From the IMG/VR virus record IMGVR_UViG_3300023176_002354, positions 1 to 27,003 of that record: a stretch of DNA of 27,003 nt; one strand, given 5' to 3'. Below, piece by piece: positions 5,102-25,068 of this stretch. Source of the DNA: a virus. The position numbers and the translations under genes were made by a program. A model generated the notes under the pieces. It worked only from the letters and a program-made list of their open reading frames with translations, ran no database searches and had not been told where the DNA came from. Every line of letters starts with the position of its first letter. Positions within the stretch are counted from its first letter, which is position 1.

Positions 5102-5107
5102 AATCCT

Positions 5108-6691
5108 TTAAAATTGCAAAATAACTTTGATATCTTCTCTTTGATTTACTGACCTAGTAATAGATGGTCTATTGTCAACATAAAGAATAGTTCCAGAATA
5201 TTTTTCTACTTCTGGATCTGCTACACCCTTAATAAATGTTTGACCTAGGTAGTATGTCTTATTATTTATGACGGTACTAATACCTGGATTTGTATCAGTT
5301 CCGAATCCTTCATCTATATATAAGTCCTTACTGCCACCTACAATTTTTAAAGATCCTCCACTCTGTAGAGTTGCAGAAAAATCATTCAATTGGAATCCGT
5401 ATGTGGCGCTAGACTTTTGAGTTCCATCCGTATTAAATCCAACAAGAGATCTATCTTGCCAGTAACGTAAAACACCAGTTTGTGCATCATATGCAACAAC
5501 TCTTCCAACAGCAGTGATACCAGTACCTACAGTTTGAGTTATAATTGCATTTTGTTCAAATGAGGTTGATCTATAATCATCTTGATTTGGAGAAAGACCC
5601 TTAAGAACTAAACCTCTCAAAGAACTTAATCTATCTTCTGTAAGAATTGTGTTTGACTGATATCCTTTTGGATCTTCCACAATTCCAATTCTAGCGACAG
5701 ACGTTCCTGTTACAAAATCTGGATTTTGATCATCATTTTCGATTCTAGAATAAATCAGAACGTTTGTTGATCCTAGTTCTGAATAAATGTCTGCACCATG
5801 ACCACCTGGTGGTGGTATGATGACATCAAAAACGGGAGTATTTGATCCAGTAGGAACGTTTCCTCCAATTAAATCAACCGTACCATAAGTATATCCAGAA
5901 CCACCATTAGAAACAGTTATTGATTCTATTTTAGAGTCATTGTTAACAACAATGGTACACTCACCACCAGACCCATCACCCCTAATAGGAACTCTTGAAT
6001 ATGTAACATTTGGGGGACCAACTAAGAATCCCCTATCTCTAATAAGTATTGTTTTTAACTGACCGCTAGTAGAAGCATTAGTTCTAACTGTTTGATAATC
6101 CGAATTAGTTTCCCAGTCTACAGGAACTGGAACAAAGTTGAGAGAGTCAAATTTGATCACATCACTTGGACTAATAGTATAAAGATATTTCCAAATATAT
6201 CCATCACCACTAGTACCAGCTGCCCTTGGTTCTAAATCTGTGAATTTTGGTTCATCAAGAGATGGTCTACCATTAGGGTTCTCTGGGTCAATTCCATTGT
6301 TTAAGCAGATGTACACACGGAATTCGCTATTTACAATATAATAATTGGATGCATATAAACTTGTTTTATTTGATGGTTTTGAAAGATTATTTCTATTAAC
6401 ATCATGGCGATACATATCATAAATTGTTGCCGATGCCCAAGAGACCTTTCTTACAACTGGTCTGACATCATCAGCAGCAATTTTTTTCAAGGCAATCATT
6501 GTATCCCAATAAGTATTGGAATCATCAAAACAATCTCTGGGAGATGGCGGAGATACATTCCAACTACTTGTTACCTCTGTTGCATTCGGCAGACCGATGA
6601 ATGTATAGTATGATTTATTCGGATCCCTAATTTTTTCAATAAAGGATCTGGCGTTTTTAACTCTCAACAAGTCAGTTATAATAGCAGCCAT
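5108..6691 (-). CDS. gp8: Baseplate wedge protein gp8, enlarged form
   Basis: 527 residues against 334 in T4 gp8. Two ends match T4 gp8 as I remember it: the segment around residues 165-175 (GDGYIWKYLYTI; T4 has GDGYVWEYLFEI) and the C-terminus (SGTILYVDNRPSITRSVNQ ending in ILQF; T4 has SGEMIYMENRPPI ending in LFTF). The extra length sits between these blocks, about residues 205-480. It contains a GGSGY motif (NGGSGYTYGTVDLIGG) of the same type repeated many times in the giant upstream protein. In T4, gp8 binds gp7 and gp6 in the wedge, and here it directly follows them. The ATG at 6691 has only a weak ribosome site. A late-promoter match lies in the 32-base gap in front. Identity is strong; the role of the insert is unknown. 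Confidence 0.88.
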   Translation of the reverse strand: MAAIITDLLRVKNARSFIEKIRDPNKSYYTFIGLPNATEVTSSWNVSPPSPRDCFDDSNTYWDTMIALKKIAADDVRPVVRKVSWASATIYDMYRHDVNRNNLSKPSNKTSLYASNYYIVNSEFRVYICLNNGIDPENPNGRPSLDEPKFTDLEPRAAGTSGDGYIWKYLYTISPSDVIKFDSLNFVPVPVDWETNSDYQTVRTNASTSGQLKTILIRDRGFLVGPPNVTYSRVPIRGDGSGGECTIVVNNDSKIESITVSNGGSGYTYGTVDLIGGNVPTGSNTPVFDVIIPPPGGHGADIYSELGSTNVLIYSRIENDDQNPDFVTGTSVARIGIVEDPKGYQSNTILTEDRLSSLRGLVLKGLSPNQDDYRSTSFEQNAIITQTVGTGITAVGRVVAYDAQTGVLRYWQDRSLVGFNTDGTQKSSATYGFQLNDFSATLQSGGSLKIVGGSKDLYIDEGFGTDTNPGISTVINNKTYYLGQTFIKGVADPEVEKYSGTILYVDNRPSITRSVNQREDIKVILQF

Positions 6692-6717: not shown

Positions 6718-6725
6718 TATTTATT
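6718..6725 (-). promoter_or_regulatory. Candidate T4-type late promoter for gp8
   Basis: AATAAATA on the minus strand, one base from the T4 late consensus TATAAATA and fitting the NATAAATA form usually given for cyanophages. It overlaps the stop of the giant gp7-like gene and lies 27 bases before the gp8 ATG, in the only sizeable gap of the baseplate operon. Late promoters of this family have no -35 box, so the match is short and could arise by chance in AT-rich DNA. Confidence 0.5.
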
Positions 6726-9700
6726 AGTTCAAATAACCAAGATATTTAAGAGGATTCTTTCTCCTTATCACTGGATTTGTTACGATTCCAGCTTGAGATA
6801 CTCCATGATTAGAGTTCCATACTTGGTTAGTTGTTCTAACTGGAAGTCCAATTTTGCCCCATGTATATTCACCATAGTATGCAGTAGTTCCCAATCCAAC
6901 TACATTATTAGCACCAGCACTCTGAAGTGAGATAATTACTGTAGTAACGGTTGTTCCAAATCCAACTGTCGTTCCAAGACCATTTATTCCTGCTGGAACT
7001 ACGGACTGTTTTGTATAGTAATCAATACACTCACACATCATGTCTGCATGTATAGTTGATACACCAACAATAGACCCATCTGCACCAAGAGAAGTTTGTG
7101 CTGCCCCAATAAAGTTGGTTTTAGTTATGTTAAAGAGATCACCAGTAGTAATTCCTGGTAAAGTTATAGATAAACCTTCCCTAATCTCGGAATTAAATGG
7201 AATAAAGAGGTCTAAAGCAACACCTAAACTTGTTCCAGCACCAATGGTCGTAGTTCCGACACCAACAATTATTCCATAATCTCCTTCAAATGTTATGAAT
7301 TGACACTCTTCCACTGCTCTCTTTGGTGGAGCGACTAACACCTCTGGTGGTTCTATTTCAATAACTTTAAACTTGATTGGTGCTCCCAATGCCCATTTTC
7401 TTGATGTAGTTGCTAGTCCAACATTATCATATGTATCAACAAATAGAGTATCACCAACTTGATAATTAGTACCACCTTCAAGAACACTGAACGAAGCAAC
7501 ATTAAAGTTTATTGTGCTGATTTCGATATCAGCAACTGCACCAAATCCGATACCACTTTCTGTTTTTAATCTTGCTGATCTAAAGAAGTTTGTATTTGTA
7601 TCTACTGGTGGGAATCCAGAACCTTGTTGCTGGAGGCTCATTGCCTTAAGTGGTCCATAGTAATAATTAGTTCCACCAGTGCTTACTGTTGCTGTTGTGA
7701 CTGATCCTCCAGCACCAATAGTAAGACCACCTATTGCTTGAGTTCCATTATCATATGGTTTTTGTATGGTAACATCTGGAGTTGATGTGTAACCATAACC
7801 AGGATTTGTTATAAGAAGATTTGATACTGATCCACCAACTCCAAGAACTGCATCTACAGTTGCTGGTACTAATTCATCTCCAGATATAATTTCAATTACT
7901 GATCTATCTTGAACAGAAATACCCTCAAAAGGATTATCAAATAATGGTCTTATGGAATAAACATAAACAGAACTATCTGCCAATCCAACATTTGATATTA
8001 TATTTGTTGATGGATTGATTATTGGTTCATAATAAACACGATCCTTACCAATGTAGTTGTTGTCAATAATCTTATCAACTGTTTGTTTTGTCCAAGATAA
8101 TGGTCTCTCAAACAATTCATTCAGAGTTACACCTTGCCCAGCATAGTTATTTGTGATAACCTTATCTGCTGCTTTAATATCCATTACAAGTCTTGGATCT
8201 TGTGTAAATGTGGTGTCAACATTACTATAAAGTTGAACTTCATCACCAACTTCAACAGAGGGGAGAACATCTACAGTACGAACGTCAATTGTTTGAGTTC
8301 CAGTATACATAAAGATTTTTGCTTTATCTCCTGTGGTACTAAATCCACTAACGCCACCTTTGGGTGCTTCTGTAAATCTTAATGTACTACCACCATTAAA
8401 CTGATAACCCTCTCCTGGTGTCTGAAGAATGTCATTAACAAATACAAGTAAGTTTGATTGTAAGTTGATTCCAGAGTTTGCTTTTGCAAAGAATGAAATA
8501 CTTTCACCATTAACTGACAGCGGGAACAATCTTCTTGCGCCGTTAAAGAATGGATCAATTTCATCAAGAACAATAAATTCACCAACGTTCCATCCAGAGA
8601 ACTTAGACTGGAAGGTTCTATCAATAGTTAATTCAAATGGGAGATATGTTGCAAGTCCAACAAATGTATGTGGGAACTGCTTTCCAACTGGGGATGATCC
8701 AGCAAATACTGTAATTGTTGTTGATGTATATGATGTAATTCCAACATCTTGGTTTGCAATGTTGCTATCGATTCCAGGACGTGGGTAAGCAAGAATTGCA
8801 CTATAATCATCACTTGCACATCTGAAGAGAAGTGATTTATTTGCAATTCTAACCGTATCTGCTGTAGTTAATGTATGAATACCAATAGTGAGTGTTGAAT
8901 TGCCACTTACAGGATCATATGTTGCATCAGTTACTGAGTAGTAATTTGCTCCATCAAATACAGGTGTAACGGCATTTGATGTTATGGTTGCAAACGTTGG
9001 AATGCCAACTGTACCACCAATTGCTACTGTCAAGCGTTCCCCAGAACCATAACCATATCCAAAATTATTAATTTCAAAATTGAGAATTGTGCTATCATTA
9101 CTTGGAACTAAGTCTACTGTTGCCCCTGTTCCAAATCCAGACTCTCCTGGATGGTAAACTAAAGGAATGTTGTAATATGTTAATGGGGCATCAAATACAA
9201 CATCAAGGGGTCTTCTGACCTCTCCACAACGCTTGTATGCGTGTGTATATGGGGATGGACCAGAGTTGATAATAAACGTGTAGTCATCTACAATTTTTGT
9301 AATTGCAGTTCCATTTGCACCAGGATCTTGCCCTGTTGGTGAGTTGTTAATTTGTCTAGGAGCAAGAATAATCTCCTCTACAATTCCTCCAGAGTTATAG
9401 AAAGATTCTGCAGTGGTAACACCAACATTAATTTCAAAGTCATAAAGACTATTCATTCTAGTAACTTGTGTTCCACAATATGTTGGGTCTGTTATTCTTG
9501 GGTGAGTAAGAATTCCAACACCGCCATCATAAGAGCATGTAAATGCAAGACCAGTAAGAATTACATCTGTGCCAACTTTTAATTTATGTCCAACTGTTAG
9601 TGAACCACCACTCACATATTCATGGCGAATAGTAGAAATTCCAGCATTAAATGTAAGTGTGTATGAATCTGGTGCTGAGAGAACTCCAAATATATCTCCA

Positions 9701-12700
9701 AGAGGTGATACTACAGAGTTGCCTGGGAATATGTTAGTATTAATACCTACTTGAATTACGCCGCCAGATGCATAAGTATGACTAATAGTTGAAGGTCCAA
9801 CATTAACTGTAAACGATGTTGTGGTCCCTACTGTAACAACATCAAAGAAATAACCTTGAGTTCCATCTGGGAATATTGATGTAGTAAGTCCAGCAGTAAC
9901 TTGTCCAGCATCATTCTCAACATAAGTATGACTAATTGTTGATGGTCCAACATTAATCTCAAATTGATCGGATGCAATGATATTAGTTACAGTAAATGTG
10001 TATCCTTGAGTTCCATCTGGGAAGATAGTTGTTGTGATACCAGACCCACCTGGGCAAGTAAATTCAAGGTTATCCAGTCTAATATCACTACCAATTCCAA
10101 TTACGCCAATAAAAGAACTAGAAGTAGTAACTGTAGAAAGACCAGTAACATTGTCATACTGGAACTGCGTAATCGTGAACGTTTGGCCATATCCTGTAGG
10201 TCCTCCAACTGGACAATTAAACGCCAATTCGCGCATCTTGAATGTTTCACCATTGGATAATCCATGATCCCCAATAGTGAAGACTGTTGCTAAACCAGTT
10301 ATATTGTCATAAGTAAAATCATATACTCCAAATGTTTGACCATACCCAACGCAAGTAAGTGCCAATCCTGCAAGACTGAAACTTCTTCCTATAGCAGTTT
10401 GAGGAACGAACTTATGCGGTTCTACCGTCGTAACAGTCGCCAATCCAGTAACATTATCATAGAAGAATCCATTAACTGTAAGCGTTGATGCACCACCAAC
10501 AGTAACTGTCATAATGCCAGTTACATTATCATAAAGAGCATTTGTTACATTTACTGGTGGATAGTAATCACATGTGAATGCTGCACCAACCACTTGAACT
10601 TCATCGCCAAGAGACAAATTATGTGGAGTGGATGTTGTTACTGTTGTGATTCCAGTTACTGAACTATAACCAATATTTGCAACTTCTCTAGGTGCATAAA
10701 ATACTTGTGGATTTGTAATAGCAACTCCAATTACATGTCCATCAACAACAGTAGCAACACCAACTGCAGTTATATTTGCAGCGCCATAACTTGCAGTCTC
10801 AATTCCAACAGATACTGTTTGCAATCCAGATCTATAACCAGATCCAGTATTACCTATTGCAATCGCTGTTATTGTTCCAGCGGCAGATACAACTGCTGTT
10901 CCTCCAGCAGATACTAAAGGTTGATAACCATAACCCGCCTTTGAAGCAACGCTAACAATAACACCTCCTCTAGGAACTCTATTTACATTAATATCATTAT
11001 GGTTATTTGGATCTGTAACTTCTCCATTAAATCCTAAGAGAAGTTGACCACCACCACCTTCAAGTTTGTAATCTCCTTCAATATTTGTTAATACATTGCC
11101 AAGTCTCTGTGGACCTTGGAATATATCATCAATTAAGACAATTGTATTTTGTGCTGAAATATTATCAATGTCATTTCCATTATATTTTAAATAGAATGAA
11201 GTGTTGATTCCATTAAATTGATCAGAAATATCATCATAAACATAGTTATTATCATATGCTGGTAAGAAGCTTGTTGTAAATGCCTGGTTTAATGCAGATC
11301 TTAAGAAGATTCTTCCACTAAATCTAGAACTTGTTGTAAGTCCTGTGTAATCAACCTCTCCAGAATTTAGCGCAGTTGTTCCAAGTCCAACTGGAATATT
11401 GCCCCAAGGACCTTCAATTAGATGAAGATCATTGTTAACTACATTAAAGTTACCAACTTGCTTTGTTCCAACAACACCAGCGGAATGAGATACTTCAGCA
11501 GTTCCCATCCATCCTCTTCTCACTGTTAATGTATTTGCTACATTATCGACCGCAGCAATTAAGACAACCTCATCTTCAAACCTTACAAGATCACCACCAA
11601 ATACAGATGTTACTCCAACCATATCGATTACAGTAGAACCAATGCCCGCTGTGGATGCAAGAGCAACTGTATATGCGGTTCCAACCATTGGAGACTGAAT
11701 AGTTCCATTGATTGTAATTAACATTCTATTATTTGGTTCAATTGCTCTGAATATATGAGTAGATCCAATTCCAACTCCAGTTAATCCAACACCTATTGGG
11801 TTAAACAACAACGCATTTGTTGCTGAAGTTGCAACTCTGACTTTTTGGTTGTCTTGTTTGATAATATAGAATTGTGATGGAAGTAATGATGTAGTACCAA
11901 TTCCTGGTCCAAAATCTGTTGGGGTAATCTGAATTGCATTGGCAAAATCATTATTTGGTGGGATATATTGTACCAATTCTCCACTAACAAAATAATGATT
12001 TGTTATATCAATGGTTCCCTCACCAACTGATATTTTAGTTGCATCATTACCAGAAAATTCAATCTCAAAAACTTTGTTGCCGTCTGAGAATAATTCAAAA
12101 TCTCTCTTTTCACCATTAAACTGATCACTAAAGTCATCAACAGCAAGAACTCTGTTTCCTATAAATTCTTGGTATTGTGCAAGGAATGGTAAATTAAACA
12201 AGATTTCATTGGATACCAAATCTCCACTAACATCAATACTCTTTTCTCTACCAATATCAAAGTCTCTGACTGTATTTAAATCAACAACTTGAGTCAAATC
12301 TGAGATTGCAATCAGAACATTGAGATCTTGTGCTGTTGTTATACCAACGATTGAGGGATCATATGAATCAATAACCAATTCACTAAATTTTTTGAATCCA
12401 GAAGTATGTGTTAAAGCACTTACCAGAGGATTCCAATCCTTATAATCTATTGAGGATCTTATTGAATAAGAGAAGTACTGATAATAATCATTATCATGAA
12501 CTCTTTGGAATGCATAATTAAGTTTTCCAGTATCTCTTAAGAAACCTTTTTTAGTAATACTATTGGACGATATCAAATATTTTCCAGATATTCCATCAAC
12601 ACTAGAAATTAATCCTTGGTTCTGTGATGATTGTCCAATGATGAGATCATCAACCTTAAATGGAATTTTAGATCTAACTCTCAAATATTCGTTTCTAAAA

Positions 12701-15700
12701 TCATAGAACTGAACTACTCCTCTATTATCATCTTGAGCAACAATAATTTCTCCAGATCTAAATGAGTCTTTTGCAAGATCAATATCAAATTGTGGGAAGT
12801 ATGATTCTGGTGTAACTGTTCCAAATGAATCAAAACTATCAAAATTACCTGGAACTTGACCTGGTTTTAAATAATCCTGTAAGTTATACGTAATAGTTGG
12901 AGTCTCCCCACCAATATTTGGATCTATGGCGGTCAAAGTAAATAATGCATATCCAAAGTCTGATGAGTTGTATCCAGTTCCATTGACAGTTGCGTCAATA
13001 TTGGTGTTCTCTACAATAACCTTATCACCAACTTTGAATGGATAATCTTCTGCTGTTGTGAATGTGACGGCAAATCCAATAGTAACATTATAGTTACCAG
13101 GATCGTATGTAATATCATCAATTCTTATACCATTTGGATTATTGATTGGTAGAATTTTTGGAGTAATGTTATACAAACCTGTTGTATTTCTTACAATGGT
13201 TACTTCAGTATCTCCAATATCATATTTGAGAGATGCTTCGGTGTTAACTCTTCCAGTAAAACCATCAAGAACAACTAATTGTGGTGGAACAAAATAATTG
13301 ATACCAGGGTTTACAATTTTAATTTGACTAAATTTAGAAAGTGGTTCAATCTTGTATGTGTATGGGAACTGTGCTGCTGGATTTAACGTTTTGTCTGAGG
13401 GATAGTCAAAACCAATATCAGTTAACACTACCTCATCAACTTGACCAAGATTGGTACTTGCTGGTAAGAAAATTGCTCCTGTTCCACCAATACTGACAAT
13501 TTCAGCAATGTTTGGAAGTTTTCTGTAATTTCTTCCTATAGAATCCAGAGAAACTTTTGCAACTGGTCCAATTGCACTTAAAGATGTTGTTGTATATGAC
13601 AACAATGCTTCATTATTTGGATATAAAATTTTCTCTGGAGTATCTAAGAGTGGATAATTAAATGTTGCGCTAGTTACTCCAGTTACATTTGCTTTGAGAT
13701 TAAATTTACTGTAAGAAACACTCAATTTATTTGGATTCTTTATATTAAAATTATCCGATATAATTTCTAGTTTTGATGCTGCTGCACCATTATATCTAAT
13801 TGGTTCTAAGTTATAATACAATGTAGTTGGGACGTTCTCATCAATAATTAATTCTAACTTTGCTCCTGGTTCTCCAATAGTTCCGCTTGTTTTTACGTTA
13901 AAATCTCCAGTATTTTCTTCTGTAGTAAAAAATTCATCACTAAAGTTTTCATCAGTATAAAGGAAGAAGTTAAATGCTGGCAAGGAATTTGCTGCTAATG
14001 TTTGATCCGATAAATCAAATATGACGGTAGAATTTCTATAGCAGAATATTTCAGGATTTACTTCACTAATAAATCCTAAAGATTGAGTTTCGATATCGAT
14101 TATTTGAACACTCTCATTAGAGGTAATTACATCATAATAATAATCCGATAAAGAAATTGTATTGTCATCTAAAACAATAACATAGTAAATCTGTGCATTG
14201 GTTAAACCAACAGATGGTGATGGTGAATTATAGATTACTTTTGCACCATTTTTAAATCCGTGGTTTGGAATTGTAATTGAATTTCTATCAATGTCAACAT
14301 CAGAATCAATAAATGATTTTTGGTTTATAACCATTCTTCTGTTCAAATCATCATAAGCAACAGTAACAGTTGTTTGAATTCCACTAACAGCATTAAATAC
14401 GATCTGATCACCTTCTGTTAATCCATGATTTATTTTGGTAGTAACCTTAGCATACTTTTTATAAACATCGCCAACAATAGTTGAAGTTTTGTTAGTATTA
14501 AAACTATGTATTTCACCAGTTCCATAGTCAACTAGATCATAGATCAGTAATCCTTCTGATCCAACGCCAACAAACTGTCCAGTGCTTCCAACTCCAACTT
14601 GTTGAGTTGAGATTCCAATAAAATCAGCATCATATACTGCAGCATATAACTTTGTACCATCTTCCAAGGGGAATTGTGTGGTCCCTGTGGATACTTTTAC
14701 CCCAGTAAATCCAGATCCAACATTGTAAGTTAATAAATCACCTGTTTTGAATCCATGAGATGGTAAATAGAATGAATGAATTGTTGATTTTATAAGTTCT
14801 TTTTGAGTCACTCCAGGATTACTCAAAGACAATAATCCAGATACATCCGCAGATCTTGACAATGCAGAACCATTAGTCTCATAAAGAGTTGATCTTAAAG
14901 TTCCAGTTTCTATTTGAGCACCCCAAACATAGAATGTTGGTGATGTATTTGATGTCAGTGTTTGTGGACCGTATGTACCAATTTTTAATGTGTGACTACC
15001 AGAACCAGTAAATGCTTGGAAAGAATATCTTCTCCAAAATCTTGTTAGGGTAACTTTTGAACTATAATATGCCAATCCATCATCAACTATAATATAAACT
15101 TCTTCACCACCAGCATTTCCCTTTAAAAATACTGATATTGTATGATTTGTTGCTGAAAGAGATGTTGAAGAATACTCAATTCCAAAACCGTCTCCTGTGC
15201 CCGTTGTTGATGCAAAAGAAACCTTTGCAACATCATTGCTACCATCTGGAGCGGTTGCAGAATAATAAGATACCGTTCCAGTACCAACACCGACAGTATA
15301 GTAATCCCATGCAGATACTAATTCTGGCGGAACTGGATTTGAATATAAAATAAGATTTTCTGATGGAATAATCACAGATTCTCTAGGATCAAAATAATAT
15401 TCAGTATCTAATTGATATTCTGTAGATGTTGTAAATCCAGTATTTACAATTAATTTTCTAGTTTTTTCCTTCAAGTTTGATCCAGCAAAGTGTGGATCAC
15501 TTGTTCCATTAATTGCTCTTTGTACTTTTATTCGAGAATCATCTTGATATACGTTTAATACTTTTACAGTCTCATCTCCAATAAGATAAAGATCATTAAC
15601 CGACAATGCTGGAAATACTAAGTTACCACTTACATTGAAGTAAGTTACAATACCACTTGAAGCAGAGTCTCCTACATTTGTTGATAACGTTAGGTTATTT

Positions 15701-18700
15701 GTAGATATTCCTACGTTGTATGATTTGGAAAACTCTGTTGATAATATGTTTAAATTTTGTATCGATACAATATCACCATTCTTTAAATTATGATCTGTTG
15801 ATCCAATTCCAATAAATCTACCGTCAGATATTGATGGTACAAATTGAACAGATTTAAGTAAATCAAACTCATAAGAAACACTATCAACGGTTTTTCCTGC
15901 AAGTTCAGATATACGTGCATATGCACCAGAACCACTTGTATCAACGTTATCAAAGAAAACACTATCCGCAAGAGAATAATTATCTCCAGGAGCAACCAAA
16001 TTTAACTTAGTAACTGATCCAGGCGTTACACTTCTTATTTCTGTAAACCCTTCTGCAAATTGATCTGGTTGTAAGAATCCAGAATAAGATGTTCTATTAC
16101 TTAAAAGACCTAATTTACCAGTATACCTAGTCCAACCAGAATCATTTATATTAATGTAGTCTAAACTGGAGAATTGACTAAAATTAAATTCTACAGGTTT
16201 TGATTTATAACTATCTCCAATAACATATGGGAAAACTGGTTTTAAGTAACCATTTAATGGTCCACTTGCTTCTGGGGTAGAATTTATAGTAGAAAAATAT
16301 GCATATACGCCATTTGGATATTCTGGAGTTTTACAATATCTACCATTGTGTATATCTAAATCACCATCTCCAACAAATTGATAATCTTCTACGAATATGC
16401 CTGCTGGGAAATCTCCAGTAGATGGTCTATTTGCTGGCAAAATCAGACTATAACCACTATTAAGTCTTTTTATTGCTCCACCTTCTTTATCGGCGTATCC
16501 GTATGGTCCATAAATTGGATGACCATCATAAGACCAACCAACAATAGGTGAGTGATATAATGTGGAATTGGTATCATTATCAATATCATCTCTATAAATT
16601 GTATTACCATCATTATCAAGAGAAGTTGAAAGTAATTTTCTTCTCAGTTCTCTACCAAGATAACCATGGGTGTATTGTAAACCAGCATCAGATGTTATTG
16701 CTGATGTAATAATACCATCGTCTGGATTAATTTTTTGTGCTTGTATAATTCTTTCAACAAGGTTTATAGACCAAGATTTTATTTTGGCAGTAAATGTTGC
16801 TCCAGAACCAGTTGGAATTACGTTTAATATCGTATCTACTTGTTTATAACCAAAACCACTTTCAATAATTTTGACTTCTGTCAATTTACCATCTTCAATT
16901 ACTGGAGTCAATACTGCACCATCTCCAGAACCTAAGATTTCAATGTTTGGTGGAGAATTATACCCACTACCAACATTATTGACAATAACACCAATTATTC
17001 TACCAGCAGCGGATACAATCGGTGTTAATTGTGCATTTACTCCACTGTTAAGTTGAATATTTGGTTGTCTGTTATAATTTAAGATACTAGCATCACCATA
17101 GTTGTTGCCATTTGTCTTTAATGATATTGAGATAATTTCTCCCGTAAATATTGGACTAATTTTAGCTGCAAAATTCTGCCCCGATGTTGTTGTTACACCA
17201 ATAGGAGCTTCCAGTTTTACTTCAATTGGTCTGTAGGTGATATTGTGTGTTCCAGTGCCCCCATCACCAAAATTAACAAATCTTTTATTTACATAGTTAA
17301 AATCTGATTGAAGAGTTGATCCAATACCAACAGTAATGTATTCTGCGACTTTGAATCTGTTACTATCAACAACATTAACATAATATTCTGATGTTGAATT
17401 TAAACCTACAGGAAGAGTATCATCTGTAGAAATTCTAACAATTTCCCTATCTGTATATCCATGATTTGGGTATACAATAGTATTTGAATAAATGTCTACA
17501 TGGTCCTCATTAAAGTATAGTGTTTTATTTGTATATCCAGATCCACCAGAAATTACTTCTATAGATGATATTACATTTTTCTTTTCAAACGCAGAAATCT
17601 TCTGCAATCCATCTCCATATGCAGTAAAGTTGATTGTATTAACACCAACAATAGCATCATCTGCAGTGTTGTAAAGTTTAATAGTCTTACCATCCAAATC
17701 TTTAACAAAATAGATGGAGTCATTGACTAATCCACCAATTTCAGTTTGTGATTGTGAAGAGTATAAAACTTTTTCATAATCTCTAAATTTATGGAAGGTG
17801 GAGAATCCAATTGTATTATTAGAAAGATTTACATTCTCATACAAACTTCCAGCATTAAATGATACTGAATGTGTTATCTTGGATAATTTACACTTTGCTT
17901 CTGCACCAATACCATTTCCACCAGAAATAGTTACTTTTGGTTCTTCAACATAATCAAATCCCTTATCAATAATGTCGATCTTTGTAAGAGATCCTCTTAC
18001 GTTACATACTCCCTCTGCCCCAGATCCAAAAATAGAACTTCCTACACCAATGTTGTCATCAATTGAGAGAACGGGTGGGTTTATAATATCATAGTTTTTA
18101 TCTCCAGGAGAAGAAACTACAATCTCTTCTATTTTACCGTAATATAAAGTATCCGAAGATTTGTAATTTAATAACTCAACTCCATTAAGAAACATTCCCG
18201 TATTACCTGGAGAGGTAATGGTTTCTTCATAATTATCATATGGTATTGGGTGTGAGAATTTTCTGATTAAAGATTGGGATTTGATAATCCTGTCTTTAAA
18301 TTTAAGAAGTTCAAACTTATTATTAAATACTGTTCCAAATACTCTAATAAAAATGCCACTTCTAATATTAGATCTACTTGTTGCTAATCTTATTGTAGAT
18401 GCATTGGCTTTATATACAAAATACTGACCTTCTTGAATATCTAGACCAATATTATTGTTGTAGTTATAATAAATGGCATCTCCAGTAATAAAACCATTTG
18501 TACCAATATTAATATCAAATCCATCAAACTGACCACTAAAGGTCACAGATAAATCTTCAATTGTTATTGGAGTGTTATAATAATCTGGAAGAGAGTTTGA
18601 AGTAACATACCTATCATTATCTTTAATATAAACATTGCTTACATTTGATGAGAATATGTTGAGTTCTGGATTATTTACAGAGTTTGCTTTTGATATACCC

Positions 18701-20232
18701 TTTCTAATGTTATACTTAACACTAGTTGTATTTACTTGTGTTGTTAAGTTAATATCAAATTCGTACCTATCAGAAACTGCAATAACAAAAACGTCATATT
18801 GATTTCCATCACTTCCCTTTACTGTTCCAATATCACCAAGAGTAAAAATATGTGGATCGTAAGTTCTTACTCTATACTGAGCAGCACCATTTAATTTTAA
18901 TGCTACTTGTGTCAGTTGTTCTATCTCATATTCTGGTGTAGAATTAAGTACCCAAGAAGTTACATTTTGATCTTCACTATCTGAACCCAGTGAGACGATT
19001 TGAATTTGATCGCCTACTTGATAATAATATGATTTTTCTCTATCATATACCAGTTCACCCAAAACACCTGTTACTTTAACGCGAATTTCGTTACCATCGT
19101 CGTCAGTAGCATAAGCATAGTCTGGAGTTGTTATATCTGCATTTAATGGGATTGCTATTGGTGATTGTAATCCAAAAAATTGAGTCGTGTTCTTGCCACT
19201 GTATTGAATTTGATACTCTACATCATTATCATAAAATACCAATGTTCCTTCATTTTCAAAACTTAATGTTGAATCTACATCAAGATAGGTTTGTCCCGCT
19301 CCAACTGGATTGGTAATTTTAGTTTTTGGGTGTACTGAGAATACAAAGGTTTCTAGGTCTGGGTTATAATCCAGACTCATTTTATAATAAACTTCATTAC
19401 TACGAAAAATTTGTTCTACATCGGTGATTGTGCCCGATGCATTTTGAATTGTAGTTGTTTCATCTTGGAAAAGAGTTCTATTTACCAGATCTTGTGGATC
19501 TCCAAGAAGTGGTTTTACAACTAGATCTCTTGTAATTCTATAATCGGCATCAGATGGTTGAATGAGGAAGTCTCTTGGTTTTACTACCTTAACATCAACT
19601 CCCCAAATCAGTCTAAACAATAGATCAAATGAAGAGTTTGCACCCTTGGATGCATAAAAATCCTTTAATCTTGCAACAGCATTTTTTTCATTAACTTCTT
19701 CATAAAACTGGACATTATCAAATCCAGGAGCATACATTCTCTTATATTTTTTATAGATTTCTGCTATAAAAAGAGAATTTAAATTAAATACAGTATCCCC
19801 AGGAGAATGTGGTTCTTTGTTTGAATCAAGAAATGTTGGAAACTTGTCAATATTGTCAACGTATGAGGTAAAACCAACAAATCCTCTCACACATCCATCA
19901 AAAGATGTTAAGGTTTTTGTATCATACCTAATAATTTCATTTCCAATTTGAACCAATCCATCTCTAGGTGGAAACCCTTCGGTGCTTGTTACCTCTATGG
20001 ATTTTGTTGAATATCCAACGCTAGATGTCAATTCTGTTGAATATACAATTTCAGAAACATTATTTAATTGAGTATATTGATCAATATTATTAACAATATC
20101 TAATGGAGATCCAGGACTTTCTAAGTCTTTATAATATGCACGTAAGAATTCTACAAATTCTGGATAAGAATCTGAAACAAAATCAGGAACTTGATCTTGA
20201 ACTAAGTTTTGTATTTTTACTCTATTATCCAT
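6724..20232 (-). CDS. gp7: Giant gp7-like baseplate wedge protein with modular beta-rich extension (4502 aa)
   Basis: A single uninterrupted 4502-codon frame, over four times T4 gp7 (about 1032). Residues 1-235 resemble the C-terminal wedge core of T4 gp7: PDFVSDSYPEFVEFLRAYY, FIAEIYKKYK and DFYASKGANSSFDLLFR (near 188-205; T4 has DFYSTKGIEASYKFLFK). Its place between gp6 and gp8 agrees. The rest is a mosaic: a YHYH domain (about 1195-1345), a jelly-roll carbohydrate-binding-like module (about 1625-1800), three FNG modules (near 2700, 3005, 3890), two 'turn-RG' modules (near 70-115 and 2855-2920), HG(F/L)-x2-GD modules, tandem YDNVTG and IFPDGTQGY repeats (3190-3480), and many GxGY motifs (near 898, 1086, 1125, 3130, 3725, 4143). 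No signal peptide or membrane segment is seen. The ATG at 20232 follows gp6 by 3 bases with AAGG upstream. The wedge role is inferred from the N-terminus and position; the extension's function is unknown. Confidence 0.85.
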   Translation of the reverse strand: MDNRVKIQNLVQDQVPDFVSDSYPEFVEFLRAYYKDLESPGSPLDIVNNIDQYTQLNNVSEIVYSTELTSSVGYSTKSIEVTSTEGFPPRDGLVQIGNEIIRYDTKTLTSFDGCVRGFVGFTSYVDNIDKFPTFLDSNKEPHSPGDTVFNLNSLFIAEIYKKYKRMYAPGFDNVQFYEEVNEKNAVARLKDFYASKGANSSFDLLFRLIWGVDVKVVKPRDFLIQPSDADYRITRDLVVKPLLGDPQDLVNRTLFQDETTTIQNASGTITDVEQIFRSNEVYYKMSLDYNPDLETFVFSVHPKTKITNPVGAGQTYLDVDSTLSFENEGTLVFYDNDVEYQIQYSGKNTTQFFGLQSPIAIPLNADITTPDYAYATDDDGNEIRVKVTGVLGELVYDREKSYYYQVGDQIQIVSLGSDSEDQNVTSWVLNSTPEYEIEQLTQVALKLNGAAQYRVRTYDPHIFTLGDIGTVKGSDGNQYDVFVIAVSDRYEFDINLTTQVNTTSVKYNIRKGISKANSVNNPELNIFSSNVSNVYIKDNDRYVTSNSLPDYYNTPITIEDLSVTFSGQFDGFDINIGTNGFITGDAIYYNYNNNIGLDIQEGQYFVYKANASTIRLATSRSNIRSGIFIRVFGTVFNNKFELLKFKDRIIKSQSLIRKFSHPIPYDNYEETITSPGNTGMFLNGVELLNYKSSDTLYYGKIEEIVVSSPGDKNYDIINPPVLSIDDNIGVGSSIFGSGAEGVCNVRGSLTKIDIIDKGFDYVEEPKVTISGGNGIGAEAKCKLSKITHSVSFNAGSLYENVNLSNNTIGFSTFHKFRDYEKVLYSSQSQTEIGGLVNDSIYFVKDLDGKTIKLYNTADDAIVGVNTINFTAYGDGLQKISAFEKKNVISSIEVISGGSGYTNKTLYFNEDHVDIYSNTIVYPNHGYTDREIVRISTDDTLPVGLNSTSEYYVNVVDSNRFKVAEYITVGIGSTLQSDFNYVNKRFVNFGDGGTGTHNITYRPIEVKLEAPIGVTTTSGQNFAAKISPIFTGEIISISLKTNGNNYGDASILNYNRQPNIQLNSGVNAQLTPIVSAAGRIIGVIVNNVGSGYNSPPNIEILGSGDGAVLTPVIEDGKLTEVKIIESGFGYKQVDTILNVIPTGSGATFTAKIKSWSINLVERIIQAQKINPDDGIITSAITSDAGLQYTHGYLGRELRRKLLSTSLDNDGNTIYRDDIDNDTNSTLYHSPIVGWSYDGHPIYGPYGYADKEGGAIKRLNSGYSLILPANRPSTGDFPAGIFVEDYQFVGDGDLDIHNGRYCKTPEYPNGVYAYFSTINSTPEASGPLNGYLKPVFPYVIGDSYKSKPVEFNFSQFSSLDYININDSGWTRYTGKLGLLSNRTSYSGFLQPDQFAEGFTEIRSVTPGSVTKLNLVAPGDNYSLADSVFFDNVDTSGSGAYARISELAGKTVDSVSYEFDLLKSVQFVPSISDGRFIGIGSTDHNLKNGDIVSIQNLNILSTEFSKSYNVGISTNNLTLSTNVGDSASSGIVTYFNVSGNLVFPALSVNDLYLIGDETVKVLNVYQDDSRIKVQRAINGTSDPHFAGSNLKEKTRKLIVNTGFTTSTEYQLDTEYYFDPRESVIIPSENLILYSNPVPPELVSAWDYYTVGVGTGTVSYYSATAPDGSNDVAKVSFASTTGTGDGFGIEYSSTSLSATNHTISVFLKGNAGGEEVYIIVDDGLAYYSSKVTLTRFWRRYSFQAFTGSGSHTLKIGTYGPQTLTSNTSPTFYVWGAQIETGTLRSTLYETNGSALSRSADVSGLLSLSNPGVTQKELIKSTIHSFYLPSHGFKTGDLLTYNVGSGFTGVKVSTGTTQFPLEDGTKLYAAVYDADFIGISTQQVGVGSTGQFVGVGSEGLLIYDLVDYGTGEIHSFNTNKTSTIVGDVYKKYAKVTTKINHGLTEGDQIVFNAVSGIQTTVTVAYDDLNRRMVINQKSFIDSDVDIDRNSITIPNHGFKNGAKVIYNSPSPSVGLTNAQIYYVIVLDDNTISLSDYYYDVITSNESVQIIDIETQSLGFISEVNPEIFCYRNSTVIFDLSDQTLAANSLPAFNFFLYTDENFSDEFFTTEENTGDFNVKTSGTIGEPGAKLELIIDENVPTTLYYNLEPIRYNGAAASKLEIISDNFNIKNPNKLSVSYSKFNLKANVTGVTSATFNYPLLDTPEKILYPNNEALLSYTTTSLSAIGPVAKVSLDSIGRNYRKLPNIAEIVSIGGTGAIFLPASTNLGQVDEVVLTDIGFDYPSDKTLNPAAQFPYTYKIEPLSKFSQIKIVNPGINYFVPPQLVVLDGFTGRVNTEASLKYDIGDTEVTIVRNTTGLYNITPKILPINNPNGIRIDDITYDPGNYNVTIGFAVTFTTAEDYPFKVGDKVIVENTNIDATVNGTGYNSSDFGYALFTLTAIDPNIGGETPTITYNLQDYLKPGQVPGNFDSFDSFGTVTPESYFPQFDIDLAKDSFRSGEIIVAQDDNRGVVQFYDFRNEYLRVRSKIPFKVDDLIIGQSSQNQGLISSVDGISGKYLISSNSITKKGFLRDTGKLNYAFQRVHDNDYYQYFSYSIRSSIDYKDWNPLVSALTHTSGFKKFSELVIDSYDPSIVGITTAQDLNVLIAISDLTQVVDLNTVRDFDIGREKSIDVSGDLVSNEILFNLPFLAQYQEFIGNRVLAVDDFSDQFNGEKRDFELFSDGNKVFEIEFSGNDATKISVGEGTIDITNHYFVSGELVQYIPPNNDFANAIQITPTDFGPGIGTTSLLPSQFYIIKQDNQKVRVATSATNALLFNPIGVGLTGVGIGSTHIFRAIEPNNRMLITINGTIQSPMVGTAYTVALASTAGIGSTVIDMVGVTSVFGGDLVRFEDEVVLIAAVDNVANTLTVRRGWMGTAEVSHSAGVVGTKQVGNFNVVNNDLHLIEGPWGNIPVGLGTTALNSGEVDYTGLTTSSRFSGRIFLRSALNQAFTTSFLPAYDNNYVYDDISDQFNGINTSFYLKYNGNDIDNISAQNTIVLIDDIFQGPQRLGNVLTNIEGDYKLEGGGGQLLLGFNGEVTDPNNHNDINVNRVPRGGVIVSVASKAGYGYQPLVSAGGTAVVSAAGTITAIAIGNTGSGYRSGLQTVSVGIETASYGAANITAVGVATVVDGHVIGVAITNPQVFYAPREVANIGYSSVTGITTVTTSTPHNLSLGDEVQVVGAAFTCDYYPPVNVTNALYDNVTGIMTVTVGGASTLTVNGFFYDNVTGLATVTTVEPHKFVPQTAIGRSFSLAGLALTCVGYGQTFGVYDFTYDNITGLATVFTIGDHGLSNGETFKMRELAFNCPVGGPTGYGQTFTITQFQYDNVTGLSTVTTSSSFIGVIGIGSDIRLDNLEFTCPGGSGITTTIFPDGTQGYTFTVTNIIASDQFEINVGPSTISHTYVENDAGQVTAGLTTSIFPDGTQGYFFDVVTVGTTTSFTVNVGPSTISHTYASGGVIQVGINTNIFPGNSVVSPLGDIFGVLSAPDSYTLTFNAGISTIRHEYVSGGSLTVGHKLKVGTDVILTGLAFTCSYDGGVGILTHPRITDPTYCGTQVTRMNSLYDFEINVGVTTAESFYNSGGIVEEIILAPRQINNSPTGQDPGANGTAITKIVDDYTFIINSGPSPYTHAYKRCGEVRRPLDVVFDAPLTYYNIPLVYHPGESGFGTGATVDLVPSNDSTILNFEINNFGYGYGSGERLTVAIGGTVGIPTFATITSNAVTPVFDGANYYSVTDATYDPVSGNSTLTIGIHTLTTADTVRIANKSLLFRCASDDYSAILAYPRPGIDSNIANQDVGITSYTSTTITVFAGSSPVGKQFPHTFVGLATYLPFELTIDRTFQSKFSGWNVGEFIVLDEIDPFFNGARRLFPLSVNGESISFFAKANSGINLQSNLLVFVNDILQTPGEGYQFNGGSTLRFTEAPKGGVSGFSTTGDKAKIFMYTGTQTIDVRTVDVLPSVEVGDEVQLYSNVDTTFTQDPRLVMDIKAADKVITNNYAGQGVTLNELFERPLSWTKQTVDKIIDNNYIGKDRVYYEPIINPSTNIISNVGLADSSVYVYSIRPLFDNPFEGISVQDRSVIEIISGDELVPATVDAVLGVGGSVSNLLITNPGYGYTSTPDVTIQKPYDNGTQAIGGLTIGAGGSVTTATVSTGGTNYYYGPLKAMSLQQQGSGFPPVDTNTNFFRSARLKTESGIGFGAVADIEISTINFNVASFSVLEGGTNYQVGDTLFVDTYDNVGLATTSRKWALGAPIKFKVIEIEPPEVLVAPPKRAVEECQFITFEGDYGIIVGVGTTTIGAGTSLGVALDLFIPFNSEIREGLSITLPGITTGDLFNITKTNFIGAAQTSLGADGSIVGVSTIHADMMCECIDYYTKQSVVPAGINGLGTTVGFGTTVTTVIISLQSAGANNVVGLGTTAYYGEYTWGKIGLPVRTTNQVWNSNHGVSQAGIVTNPVIRRKNPLKYLGYLN
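9830..10670 (-). repeat. Internal tandem repeats in the giant gp7-like gene
   Basis: Five protein modules start with YDN(V/I)TG followed by (L/I)xTV (one diverged copy reads YSSVTG). At DNA level they share a core close to CCAGTAACATTATCATA on the plus strand near 10142, 10294, 10444 and 10512, with a weaker copy near 10655. To the left lie two copies of a unit containing IFPDGTQGY and VGPSTISHTY, with near-identical DNA around 9775 and 9925 and around 9850 and 10010. The DNA similarity implies fairly recent duplication within the gene. Confidence 0.8.
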
Positions 20233-20235
20233 ATT

Positions 20236-22146
20236 TTATAACCTTACGTATTCTCCGTTTAAGTAACTAGATGATACTATATATTGAGTTCCAGAGAGGT
20301 CTATTCCAGAAGCTATAGTGTCTGCTATCATATCAACGCTAGATTTTGAAGTATCTAACTGCAGGTATAAATCCTGTAAACCAATAACATCATTTGATTG
20401 AGGTATCATTGATACTTCGACAATATTATCGCCAAGTTTTTTCTTTGAAGTGGAGATAATGTTAACTGCGTTTACACGAATCTCACCTCTCAAATAATCA
20501 ATTGTACCAAAATCCTTTCTAATGATTACTGGTTCGTTTTTTGCATCTAATTTGAATAAGAAAATTGATCCAGTCTCTTGATCTGTATTTGGTAAATCGC
20601 TAAAATAAACCGTACCAGTAATTCCTGATACTTGCAAACCACTGGTTTTAATATTGTATCCATTCAATGATTTAATGTGAACTCTATTTCCAAAACAAAT
20701 TTCATATTCAGCAAAAATACCAGGAGGAGATACTTTCACATCTCTTCTCAAAAATATAGTAGTAATGTTTGATGTGATTGCTGCAGCAGAATCATCAATA
20801 AGTTTTAAGAACTTACTGTATTTGAATCTAGAACCATATCTATTTAACTCATCAGAAGAAGCAAATAATTCAATATTTTTCTTAACCTCTTCCTTTATTT
20901 GAGATGCGGAACCAAGATTTTGGTTGTAATAAACATTAGAATCATACTCAATATAAAGATATTTTAAATCAATAAACTCTGGTATAATTCCAGCAACAGA
21001 ATATTTTCTAAGTAATGTCTTTATATTATCTTTTACAATGTTTGGAACGTAATCACCATTTTTTGGTTTGATAGATATGAATACTTTTCCATATTTTGGT
21101 GGAGTCAATTCTTCACCACCATAAACTGATACTGAATCTGTTTCTGGGTATAGAGATGGAATCAGTGCCTCATAGTCCCCTGCAGTAACTGCTCTATTTT
21201 GTGATGCATAGACTCTAGGAGCCAACTTCTTAATCGACTCTACAGATTCAATTGGGGATCCATAACCAGCAGATTCTACAACACTAACCAAAGGAGAGGT
21301 TATCTTTAATAAACTTCCATTGTTATCAACAAATCTTCCCGTAAATCTAAACTTGTCTATTCCATTCCCATTTTCTGCGTTTGTTACAACATAAGTTACG
21401 ATAATAAAATTATCATTCTTAAGCTTACTACCAAATGTACCATCACCAAAAATTAATTCATATCTTTGGTCATCTATTTCATTAATGAAAAATACATCAT
21501 CGGTTCTAGATACATTTGTTAAATTAGATGCCTGTCTATAGTAACGAGTAACATTACTATTCTTACTCTCTCTTACTTCAACTCTAATCAGACTTGTATC
21601 AATTCTTGGATTCTGCAATATGAATCTTTGATTCTTTTTGTTGCTATCAACAGTAAATGTATTTTGAATGTACCCACCTTCAAAAATTTCTAACTCTTCA
21701 AAAACTGCAGTAGAATTTGATACTGGAACAGTAACGTCATCTGGTATTGAATAGACGTAACTAAGTCCACCATAACTTGCTGCTGTGGTAGCAACAATGC
21801 CCTTTTTTAAGGTAACTGAGACTATATTTGCTGATAGATCAGTTAAATTTAATGCAAACTGAACTTTTGCCCTAGATGCAGTTACTGAACGAGGGAGATA
21901 TCCAAGATTCCTTGCTAATGATACTACATTCTCTCTGAGAGTTGCTCCATCAAGAAACACCTCATTGGTCAACATGTTGGCATTATAAGCACTTATGTAA
22001 GTGTTATATGCTAACGTGTCTAAAAGAACAGAAAAATTTGACCCCTCAAAATCATAGTCAGTAAAGTTACCATCGGCTCTTAGGTAACTTTTAATTGACT
22101 CTTTGATTTCTGCAAAATCTAGACTTGCTACGTTGACTATTGACAT
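20236..22146 (-). CDS. gp6: Baseplate wedge protein gp6 (baseplate J-like)
   Basis: 636 residues, close to T4 gp6 (660). Residues 28-50 (FTDYDFEGSNFSVLLDTLAYNT) match the T4 motif FLDYDFEGSRLNVLCDLLAYNT. This is followed by TLRENVVSLARNLGYLPRS, the equivalent of the T4 stretch ending DNGYLPTS. A later block, AVTAGDYEALIPSLYPETDSVSVYGGEE, fits the baseplate J-like core. In T4, gp6 dimers join neighbouring wedges into the ring around the hub. The ATG directly abuts the gp25 stop (TAA-ATG) with no clear ribosome site, so translational coupling to gp25 is likely. The next gene starts 3 bases after its stop. No truncation or frameshift seen. Confidence 0.95.
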   Translation of the reverse strand: MSIVNVASLDFAEIKESIKSYLRADGNFTDYDFEGSNFSVLLDTLAYNTYISAYNANMLTNEVFLDGATLRENVVSLARNLGYLPRSVTASRAKVQFALNLTDLSANIVSVTLKKGIVATTAASYGGLSYVYSIPDDVTVPVSNSTAVFEELEIFEGGYIQNTFTVDSNKKNQRFILQNPRIDTSLIRVEVRESKNSNVTRYYRQASNLTNVSRTDDVFFINEIDDQRYELIFGDGTFGSKLKNDNFIIVTYVVTNAENGNGIDKFRFTGRFVDNNGSLLKITSPLVSVVESAGYGSPIESVESIKKLAPRVYASQNRAVTAGDYEALIPSLYPETDSVSVYGGEELTPPKYGKVFISIKPKNGDYVPNIVKDNIKTLLRKYSVAGIIPEFIDLKYLYIEYDSNVYYNQNLGSASQIKEEVKKNIELFASSDELNRYGSRFKYSKFLKLIDDSAAAITSNITTIFLRRDVKVSPPGIFAEYEICFGNRVHIKSLNGYNIKTSGLQVSGITGTVYFSDLPNTDQETGSIFLFKLDAKNEPVIIRKDFGTIDYLRGEIRVNAVNIISTSKKKLGDNIVEVSMIPQSNDVIGLQDLYLQLDTSKSSVDMIADTIASGIDLSGTQYIVSSSYLNGEYVRL

Positions 22147-22548
22147 TTATCGAGTTGGTAGTAATACAAATTGCAACTGTTGGGGTTGAGCGTCAATACC
22201 CACAATATAGTATTTTATAGTTACTTCCATTAGATTCTCATCTTCTTTTGGAGTAACAATAACTTCTTTTAGGTCAACTCTAGGTTCATTGTTTTTTATA
22301 ACATTTATTATTTCATCTTTTAATGAACTAGCAGCAAAAAAGTCAATATTTTCAAATAATAATCTATTTACGTCACTTCCAAGACTTGGATTAAAAAATC
22401 TTTCACCACGAACAGTCAAAACTAAATTTTGAACAGAGCGTGCAATAGCATATTCATTCTTTAATATGACCAAATCTTTTGTCAAGGGGTTAGACCTTAA
22501 CGAAAGACTTATATCTTTAAACCCCTTACTGACACGCTCTAAAGGCAT
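22147..22548 (-). CDS. gp25: Baseplate wedge protein gp25
   Basis: 133 residues from the ATG at 22548, starting MPLERVSKGFKDISLS, the usual beginning of cyanophage gp25; T4 gp25 is of similar size. NPLTKDLVILKNEYAIARSV and VRGERFFNPSLGSDV are typical of the GPW/gp25 family. Family members sit in the inner wedge with gp6. An in-frame TTG at 22560 would add four residues (MINI) and has AAGG at better spacing (7 bases, against 19 for the ATG), so the start is not settled. It is the first gene of the wedge operon and is coupled to gp6 by a TAA-ATG junction. A late-promoter match lies about 30 bases upstream. Confidence 0.93.
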   Translation of the reverse strand: MPLERVSKGFKDISLSLRSNPLTKDLVILKNEYAIARSVQNLVLTVRGERFFNPSLGSDVNRLLFENIDFFAASSLKDEIINVIKNNEPRVDLKEVIVTPKEDENLMEVTIKYYIVGIDAQPQQLQFVLLPTR

Positions 22549-22577
22549 GATATTTATCAAAAGTTTACCTTATGACT

Positions 22578-23727: not shown

Positions 23728-23898
23728 TTATTCAGAAGTTTCAAAAAGTGGATCGAGGTAAATGAGGGAGGGATCAATGTCCTCCCCCTCATAGTATTTT
23801 TCAGAGATTTCTTGAAGTACCTCAGAGGCATCTTCAATAGTGAGGTTCTGATATAATGCTCTGCCATTATAGCAGAGATTATAGAGTTTTTCTTTCAT
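23728..23898 (-). CDS. Conserved-type 56-residue protein
   Basis: Starts MKEKLYNLCYNGRALYQNLT and continues with EDASEVLQEISEKYYEGEDI, an acidic, probably helical protein. A longer frame exists upstream to 23946, but the ATG at 23898 overlaps the glycosyltransferase stop by one base (TGATG), the usual sign of translational coupling, so I take that start. No function recognised; it looks like a short protein common next to the glycosyltransferase-like gene in cyanophages. Confidence 0.78.
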   Translation of the reverse strand: MKEKLYNLCYNGRALYQNLTIEDASEVLQEISEKYYEGEDIDPSLIYLDPLFETSE

Positions 23899-25059: not shown

Positions 25060-25068
25060 ATTATACCA
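25060..25068 (-). promoter_or_regulatory. Extended -10 promoter candidate
   Basis: TGGTATAAT (TGn plus perfect TATAAT) on the minus strand, overlapping the oxygenase-like gene's stop and placed to start RNA near 25053, just before the 43-residue gene. No good -35. The 11 bases TATAATAAGGT recur exactly at 25742-25732. Confidence 0.5.

Follow-up and report, generated by a model that had tools for sequence, protein, structure and literature searches.

In phage T4, gp7 is a wedge-core subunit that joins two copies of gp6; it is present in six copies, and the work of the baseplate periphery is done by its own N-terminal domains together with separate proteins such as gp10-gp12. The T4 protein has 1032 residues (PDB 5iv5, 5hx2) and its gene lies between genes 6 and 8. 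About 640 N-terminal residues are followed by two helical blocks (1a and 1b), domain V and a further block (block 2). A minimal gp7-type partner of two gp6-type subunits is gp17 of Vibrio phage XM1. The cryo-EM study (PMC10457771) describes it as a gp7 orthologue of only 242 residues whose helix-turn-helix joins the (gp16)2-gp17 core bundle. The tail-spike density encloses its loop 80-106 and its C-tail 201-242, and twelve spikes are attached through gp17. Turning to marine phages, a 2010 comparison counted gp7 in the core of non-cyanophages (PMC3037559), and a 2010 review lists g10, g11 and g12 among the genes that cyanomyoviruses lack (PMC2984593). According to a 2020 paper, neither cyano- nor pelagimyophages have gp7, for which VrlC appears to be the substitute (PMC7029224). 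GenBank names a 5195-residue protein of P-SSM2 (PSSM2_111) gp7, and a gp7 identity for proteins of this kind is thus not new. This protein and the Kyanoviridae 'baseplate wedge initiator' proteins have the gene order, N-terminus and two arms of the locus described here. P-SSM2 gp7 is about 30% identical to our protein over aligned residues, lacks its carbohydrate-binding-like module and has a longer C-terminal arm of 2665 residues.

The DNA analysed (the window) is a stretch of 27,003 nucleotides, IMG/VR record IMGVR_UViG_3300023176_002354. The genome of this virus is known as fragments of 27 and 37 kb, the second contig being 99.97% identical to the window over 26,215 bases and extending 10.7 kb further. 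One open frame encodes a giant protein of 4502 residues and about 488 kDa. The first-pass annotation had delimited this gene correctly; its strand is minus, the plus-strand translation being full of stops. Read along that strand the gene order is 25-6-X-8, with the giant gene in the place of gene 7 in the T4 order 25-6-7-8, between gp6 and gp8 and with gp25 upstream (Table 1). The VrlC protein that follows gp8 is 2547 residues long in the longer contig, where it is the sole large ORF from gp8 to the neck genes. The DUF4815 family that defines it in Table 1 was not matched in the giant protein at E up to 1. A long polyproline run lies in VrlC near the window edge (2-140, minus strand). Upstream of the baseplate genes are a phrog_1574 protein (23898-24683) that matches a glycosyltransferase family less strongly and a 2OG-Fe(II) oxygenase (25061-25714).

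Table 1. Baseplate genes of the window and the parts of the giant gp7 orthologue
Feature	Residues	Position	Strand	Basis
VrlC / DUF4815 protein, cut by window end		2..5101	-	PF16075, 192.5 bits
gp8, baseplate wedge		5108..6691	-	PF09215, 51.5 bits (cut-off 25)
Giant gp7 orthologue, 4502 aa	1-4502	6724..20232	-	Open frame; phrog_2885 baseplate wedge subunit, E 0
Arm 2, C-terminal extension (1879 aa)	2624-4502	6727..12363	-	Alignment; block models
Run of related repeats in arm 2	3183-3850	8683..10686	-	Profile-against-self searches; comparison with relative
Block 2, about T4 862-890	2555-2623	12364..12570	-	E 1.8e-15, short-form-only model
Arm 1, domain V to block 2 (2162 aa)	393-2554	12571..19056	-	Long stretch in 31/31 giants; recurring modules
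Carbohydrate-binding-like module, arm 1	1641-1830	14743..15312	-	phmmer, VIA
YHYH domain, arm 1	1223-1317	16282..16566	-	PF14240, 81.1 bits (cut-off 25)
Domain V counterpart (T4 763-842)	230-392	19057..19545	-	VIA, hhalign
Block 1b, DFYASKG...LLF, about T4 706-760	157-222	19567..19764	-	E 5.9e-14 for 179-239
Small beta module between blocks 1a and 1b	62-153	19774..20049	-	VIA
Block 1a, N-terminal helices	7-61	20050..20214	-	hhalign; helices predicted at low confidence
gp6, baseplate wedge		20236..22146	-	PF21379 and PF21387 above cut-off
gp25, baseplate wedge		22147..22560	-	PF04965, 45.3 bits (cut-off 27.2)

The giant protein is almost certainly the gp7 of this virus. The helical core block DFYxxKG...F of T4 gp7 (T4 706-760) is present near its N-terminus: DFYASKG at residues 191-197 is followed by LLF, as DFYSTKG at T4 733-739 is followed by FLF. 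A wedge block at this end had been annotated in the T4 letters and as the end of T4 gp7; its placement holds, but the letters differ, and about 290 residues come after the block in T4. Pairwise BLAST of the giant against T4 gp7 was weak (E 7e-4), and P-SSM2 (2.6e-5) and S-SM2 (7.9e-5) aligned with T4 gp7 in the same register. When residues 1-400 were searched by tblastn, with a permissive threshold, in 50,697 phage records, Aeromonas and Stenotrophomonas phages also appeared by way of this stretch, among them PX29 with its gene 7 (E 0.03). In profile-profile alignment (hhalign), residues 185-287 matched T4 727-813 (96.1%, E 3e-9) and residues 6-250 matched a profile of short-form gp7s, the short gp7s of other phages described below (99.6%, E 4e-24). 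When a profile made from 78 N-terminal sequences of the window protein and relatives was searched against 177,635 PDB sequences, gp7 ranked first and second (E 2.8e-5 and 4.6e-5) and gave the only significant matches; with the short-form profile gp7 was found at 1.4e-11. The next matches of the N-terminal profile, from E 0.037 upwards, were enterotoxin, cholera toxin and nitric oxide synthase chains, which we took as chance. Given the profile-profile E-value and the sole significant PDB match, the T4 gp7 block in the giant is not a chance resemblance.

Structure prediction agreed at moderate confidence. An AlphaFold2 model of residues 1-420 (pLDDT 69.5, pTM 0.39) is helical at 7-61 and 151-222 and forms beta domains at 65-119, 234-290 and 303-391. 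VIA aligned residues 230-391 with T4 763-842 (5hx2_A), which is domain V, at Z 8.3 and rmsd 2.6 over 80 residues, a Z only moderately above the 6.0-6.7 of unrelated beta barrels over the same stretch; the hhalign match also runs into domain V, to T4 813. The longest VIA alignment (T4 639-844) had an rmsd of 13.1. The top Foldseek match was a baseplate entry of a Klebsiella phage KP1 variant, through a chain of 1031 residues taken as gp7 from its length and from the entry's named gp7 chain in the PDB profile search; a T4 baseplate chain came third. TM-scores to the gp7 chains were low (0.12-0.15, query-normalised), and neurotoxin binding domain rows at E 0.012 and above were taken as chance. 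The Pfam models Gp7_helical, Gp7_5th and Gp7_6th all match the T4 protein but none matched the giant at E up to 1, and PF23786 (Baseplate_wedge), with a cut-off of 27 bits, reached only 18.3.

Searched through all genes of 12 complete phage records, the short-form gp7 profile placed its N-terminal core columns (about 1-130) solely in the gene at the gp7 position, while other genes matched middle columns that are common to beta modules. No second gp7 homologue was thus found by the core columns in these records; the window's own genome is represented by fragments only. Profile match, gene order and moderate-confidence fold agree that the wedge anchor is gp7, as the first-pass annotation had proposed; the match to gp7 falls within residues 1-300, the stretch that it had named for checking.

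The core has gained small insertions as well. Block 1a corresponds to the helical domain of T4 gp7 (about 645-700), and the short forms align with T4 from 644. The beta module that separates it from block 1b gave VIA Z-scores of 9.4 and 9.5 over 75-76 residues with chains of phage GP4 portal-tail and phage VP1 capsid entries, and a similar stretch lies at 251-400. A further beta module, nested in domain V at 302-370, resembles four phage tail chains (VIA Z 7.0-9.8).

We scanned the giant against gp7 profiles in 45 segments of 250 residues. Strong matches came solely from segments overlapping residues 6-288 and 2564-2623, and with the short-form profiles no other region reached 25%. The second of these, block 2, matched the short-form profile at 98.6% (E 1.4e-15). 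The gp7 core, roughly 400-500 residues made up of blocks 1a, 1b, domain V and block 2 as judged from sequence and prediction, is thus very probably split, with domain V and block 2 far apart in the chain. Domain V ends at about residue 392, and the first arm is therefore taken as 393-2554. Unlike in T4 gp7, domain V and block 2 are 2,162 residues apart in the giant, and a further 1,879 residues extend beyond block 2. The earlier picture of a wholly N-terminal core trailed by a single very long C-terminal arm does not survive, since about 2,160 residues precede block 2 and 1,879 follow it.

Models of block 1b and block 2 were built from nine short gp7s only and run on 46 proteins and their 46 reversals. 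Both blocks were found in order in 31/31 giants (29 distinct; one is the window's own virus and two are identical), in all five T4-like gp7s and in gp055 of HTVC008M. The window scored 44.3 bits for block 1b and 49.1 bits for block 2, against best control scores of 4.1 and 3.2 bits; the controls were 200 shuffles, 20 for every one of ten giants, together with four other proteins of the window. Two of the model's own members, when reversed, were hit by the block 1b model (E 1.4e-4 and 0.01), so E-values near 1e-4 with this model were distrusted; all giants scored 2.4e-10 or better. The stretch 2564-2623 has 60 residues in each of 26 aligned giants. The two block matches are separated by about 100 residues in T4-like gp7s, 65-765 in short forms and 1558-2790 in giants (2315 in the window). 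BLAST of pf16, Melnitz-3, OC and YB07 gp7s against the giant returned collinear pieces, the last between residues 2541 and 2623; Melnitz-3 additionally matched shared modules out of order.

The link from block 2 of the giant to T4 runs through the short forms, as the direct match is weak (hhalign 3.8%, E 0.011). With the short-form model, block 2 of T4 (862-890) was recovered at E 9e-4 and that of the other four T4-like gp7s at 3e-5 to 1.1e-4. The profile alignment of short forms with T4 extends to T4 892, spanning block 2, without realignment and ends at T4 828 with it. A predicted model of residues 1560-2690 had a pLDDT of 59, with most of block 2 below 50; block 2 has no confident fold there and hence gains no confirmation from it. 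For one structure model the relatives were picked by alignment columns, blastp boundaries giving only seven.

Short-form gp7s start with block 1a and carry both blocks in the order seen in the giant. They comprise X1 (498 residues), YB07 (503), pf16 (523), BUCT-ZZ01 (607), OC (631), Cr30 (767), Melnitz-3 (896), phiM12 (1007), HTVC008M gp055 (1016) and DLP6 (1288). All nine of those used lack the N-terminal region of T4, which the giant also lacks: T4 1-640 reached at most 1.4% in any of the 45 segments. That arm is thus not definitive of gp7 as such. The first-pass annotation was right that the N-terminal two thirds of T4 gp7 is not visible in the giant, but its reading that an outer part had been replaced is too simple, as the same region is missing from the short forms and may be a T4-side addition.

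A length of 4502 residues is not unusual for the group. Proteins at the gp7 position have 3048 residues in S-PM2, 3895 in S-SRM01, 4024 in S-B05, 4067 in Bellamy, 4156 in S-SM2, 4307 in P-TIM68, 4749 in S-T4, 5195 in P-SSM2, 6619 in S-SZBM1, 6817 in ACG-2014d and 7312 in P-SSM4 (analysed in its first 6285 residues), and 3680-4502 in 20 environmental records, one of them the window's own virus. The giants were picked by similarity to the window, so no frequency can be derived from them. The Synechococcus elongatus phage BUCT-ZZ01 has a short gp7 (3477-5300 of its record), and the giant form is therefore not needed for infecting cyanobacteria. In P-SSM4, ACG-2014d and S-SZBM1, block 1b starts near residue 671-675, with about 500 residues inserted between blocks 1a and 1b.

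Both arms are strings of beta modules. Self-BLAST of the giant protein returned nothing and the gene contains few DNA repeats, all short, but profile-against-self searches revealed several module families that recur in both arms and in the small core insertions; these searches replaced a hand-written beta-module motif, which had found only five places. Relatives differ by whole stretches in a 26-sequence alignment, which leaves out two near-duplicates, S-PM2, P-SSM4 and ACG-2014d. Residues 3183-3690, in the repeat run of arm 2, are present in six sequences (window, three closest relatives, P-SSM2 and S-T4), and one near relative lacks stretches of about 100-111 residues from this run. Residues 1656-1776 and 4200-4290 occur in the window and its three closest relatives only. 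The YHYH domain is present in all 26, and invariant columns are densest there, with 20 at residues 1201-1300, the maximum for any 100. A PDB search with the YHYH segment gave carbonic anhydrases alone at E 0.43 and above and was not used.

The carbohydrate-binding-like module is confined to the window and its three closest relatives (4/26). By phmmer the segment matched the head spike fibre 6tb9 of a gene transfer agent at E 0.0063, having been chosen after a whole-protein match at 0.29. Residues 1656-1776 within it form a predicted beta sandwich, with VIA Z up to 10.0 to CBM4-2; 44 of the 50 VIA rows listed align at this module, many of them named carbohydrate-binding modules. Foldseek rows to carbohydrate-binding modules had E of only 0.014-0.042, with local pLDDT of 25-72. 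On this modelled fold, the module may contribute by contacting glycans directly.

The arms have diverged at about the rate of the wedge proteins gp6 and gp25. Compared with two relatives, gp7 is 85% and 67% identical by global alignment, and by tblastn gp6 is 84% and 70%, gp25 85% and 68%, gp8 93% and 84%, and the first 1669 residues of VrlC 92% and 74% identical. Along the arms, identity per 100 residues is 0.73-0.97 to one relative and 0.51-0.91 to the other. No fast-evolving tip was seen in the arms at this resolution, and in these two relatives conservation over the first 200 residues is not higher than in the arms.

Virion proteomics places a giant gp7 in particles of a relative. In PMC9146016, S-SZBM1_208, a 'baseplate wedge initiator', has a mass spectrometry row of 724.20, 6619, 71 and 13.5%, figures that we read as kDa, residues, peptides and coverage. 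The S-SZBM1 GenBank record has a 6619-residue gene directly after gp25 and gp6, and the protein carries both blocks, at 675-762 (E 1.3e-21) and 3519-3581 (E 1.3e-17). On this reading, the peptides indicate that the giant gp7 of S-SZBM1 is in its virions. PMC10665884 reports 91 unique peptides for S-CREM2 ORF122, which has 1937 residues from its coordinates and whose gp7 position we judged by the order and lengths of its neighbours.

Outside gp7, the gp11 family had no match in any of 11 non-T4 records and the gp9/gp10 N-domain family was missing from 7/11, T4 being positive for both. The gp9/gp10 N-domain was present in 4/10 giant-bearing records, so a T4-like periphery has not been lost everywhere.

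Two other accounts bear on how much of the protein is gp7. The N-terminus alone might be gp7, with block 2 a coincidence and everything after about residue 392 one C-terminal fibre. The weak direct match of block 2 to T4 and the lack of a confident model fold leave room for this, but a model free of giants scores block 2 at 49.1 bits where the best shuffle reaches 3.2, and searches with short gp7s match named cyanophages (e.g. P-RSM4) twice, the second site lying about 8 kb further downstream, which makes coincidence most improbable. That gp7 is absent and VrlC stands in for it, as PMC7029224 proposes, is barely credible. Such a protein does come after gp8 in P-SSM2, S-SM2 and S-B05, and VrlC reached 32.3% with the short-form profile, in the middle columns (145-219) common to beta modules. 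Its first 1700 residues, however, reached at most 0.4% with the T4 gp7 profile, and VrlC of HTVC008M 0.2%; on these profile tests we rejected VrlC as the substitute. It is the protein between gp6 and gp8 that bears both gp7 blocks, and this includes gp055 of the pelagimyophage HTVC008M, which matches the short-form gp7s over its length by hhalign (99.9%, E 3e-35; T4 profile alone 1.5%).

As to the arms, they might primarily be adhesins that bind the host surface directly, in line with the host contact that the first-pass annotation had suggested. The carbohydrate-binding-like module would suit this, as would its absence from 22/26 aligned giants, which is how a swapped binding module would behave. 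Its being missing from most giants also means that it is not their general function, and arms without a hypervariable tip that are overall about as conserved as gp6 and gp25 speak against the idea; we consider it unlikely. Proteolytic release of the arms while the particle assembles, which would leave the gp7 core and the arms as separate parts of the virion, is very unlikely. The chain is very long, a relative has an annotated prohead protease and peptides detected by mass spectrometry do not by themselves prove the chain intact. Yet the frame is open without stops in 20/20 environmental records, and such a cut would sever block 2, which lies beyond arm 1, from blocks 1a and 1b.

The best explanation is that the giant is a gp7 wedge-core subunit with two added arms that would serve as an outer baseplate scaffold, and we regard this as reasonably probable. 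The core would sit in the wedge as in T4, with its helices in the (gp6)2-gp7 bundle. The stretch of about 2,160 residues lies between domain V and block 2, so both of its ends are tied to the core; arm 1 would form a closed loop that starts and ends in the wedge, and arm 2 would hang from the wedge. Giants have grown at a loop and at the C-tail, the kinds of site at which XM1 gp17 contacts the tail spikes, and by this analogy we infer that the two arms are enlarged docking sites. Whether they are in fact a built-in periphery with a docking role is, in our judgement, evenly balanced. Six copies, about 2.9 MDa, would then form the outer scaffold and a docking surface for receptor-binding proteins, doing the work that T4 assigns to the N-terminal domains of gp7 and to separate proteins such as gp10-gp12. 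A more speculative and rather doubtful extension is a trip-wire, in which the pull of host contact on the loop would pass directly to the gp6-gp7 joint and replace the T4 gp9-gp12 network. The loop would exit and re-enter beside this joint, which shifts as the baseplate opens.

Annotation of this protein is scattered. Best PHROG matches of gp7s are 964 (T4), 2885 (window), 4406 (S-PM2), 26741 (pf16, YB07), 17744 (OC) and 3465 (HTVC008M). HTVC008M gp055 (13435-16485 of its record, between gp6 and gp8) is annotated 'head closure Hc2', the label also given to phrog_3465. In the same phage gp063 and gp064 (3-1649 and 1699-4905) are annotated 'baseplate wedge initiator' and had no gp7 match, one of the two being searched without its first 80 residues; they resemble repeat-rich fibre proteins. 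In Ochrobactrum phage OC, the gene at 2121-4004 is labelled T4-like gp7 and sits in the gp6 position directly before the protein with the gp7 blocks; it is probably gp6. The window gp8 matches phrog_460 (head closure Hc2) in its middle, and a neck protein gp14 (12819-14219 of its record) matches phrog_701 and phrog_2885; judging by these matches, a beta module seems to be common to several virion proteins. The S-TIM4 gene found by tblastn, ORF101, is unnamed in the main text of PMC6224464. In the literature searched, which excluded most subscription papers and all preprints, we found no description of a split gp7 core; the giant thus appears, from its sequence, to be a known protein with an architecture that we did not find described.

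If this reading is true, at least six PHROG families that are currently listed separately, several of them as head/packaging or connector proteins, would merge into one. Across the lineages, a single wedge core has been extended at four points: the N-terminus (T4), the gap between blocks 1a and 1b (P-SSM4, ACG-2014d, S-SZBM1), the gap between domain V and block 2, and the C-terminus. The finding touches the question of how marine cyanophages, which lack the T4 set of fibres, construct the outer baseplate and set off contraction. If the arms are the periphery, the missing outer periphery of cyanophages would lie in cis, within a gp7 gene of 9 to 22 kb, and if the trip-wire reading holds, marine cyanophages would have folded much of the outer baseplate into gp7 itself.
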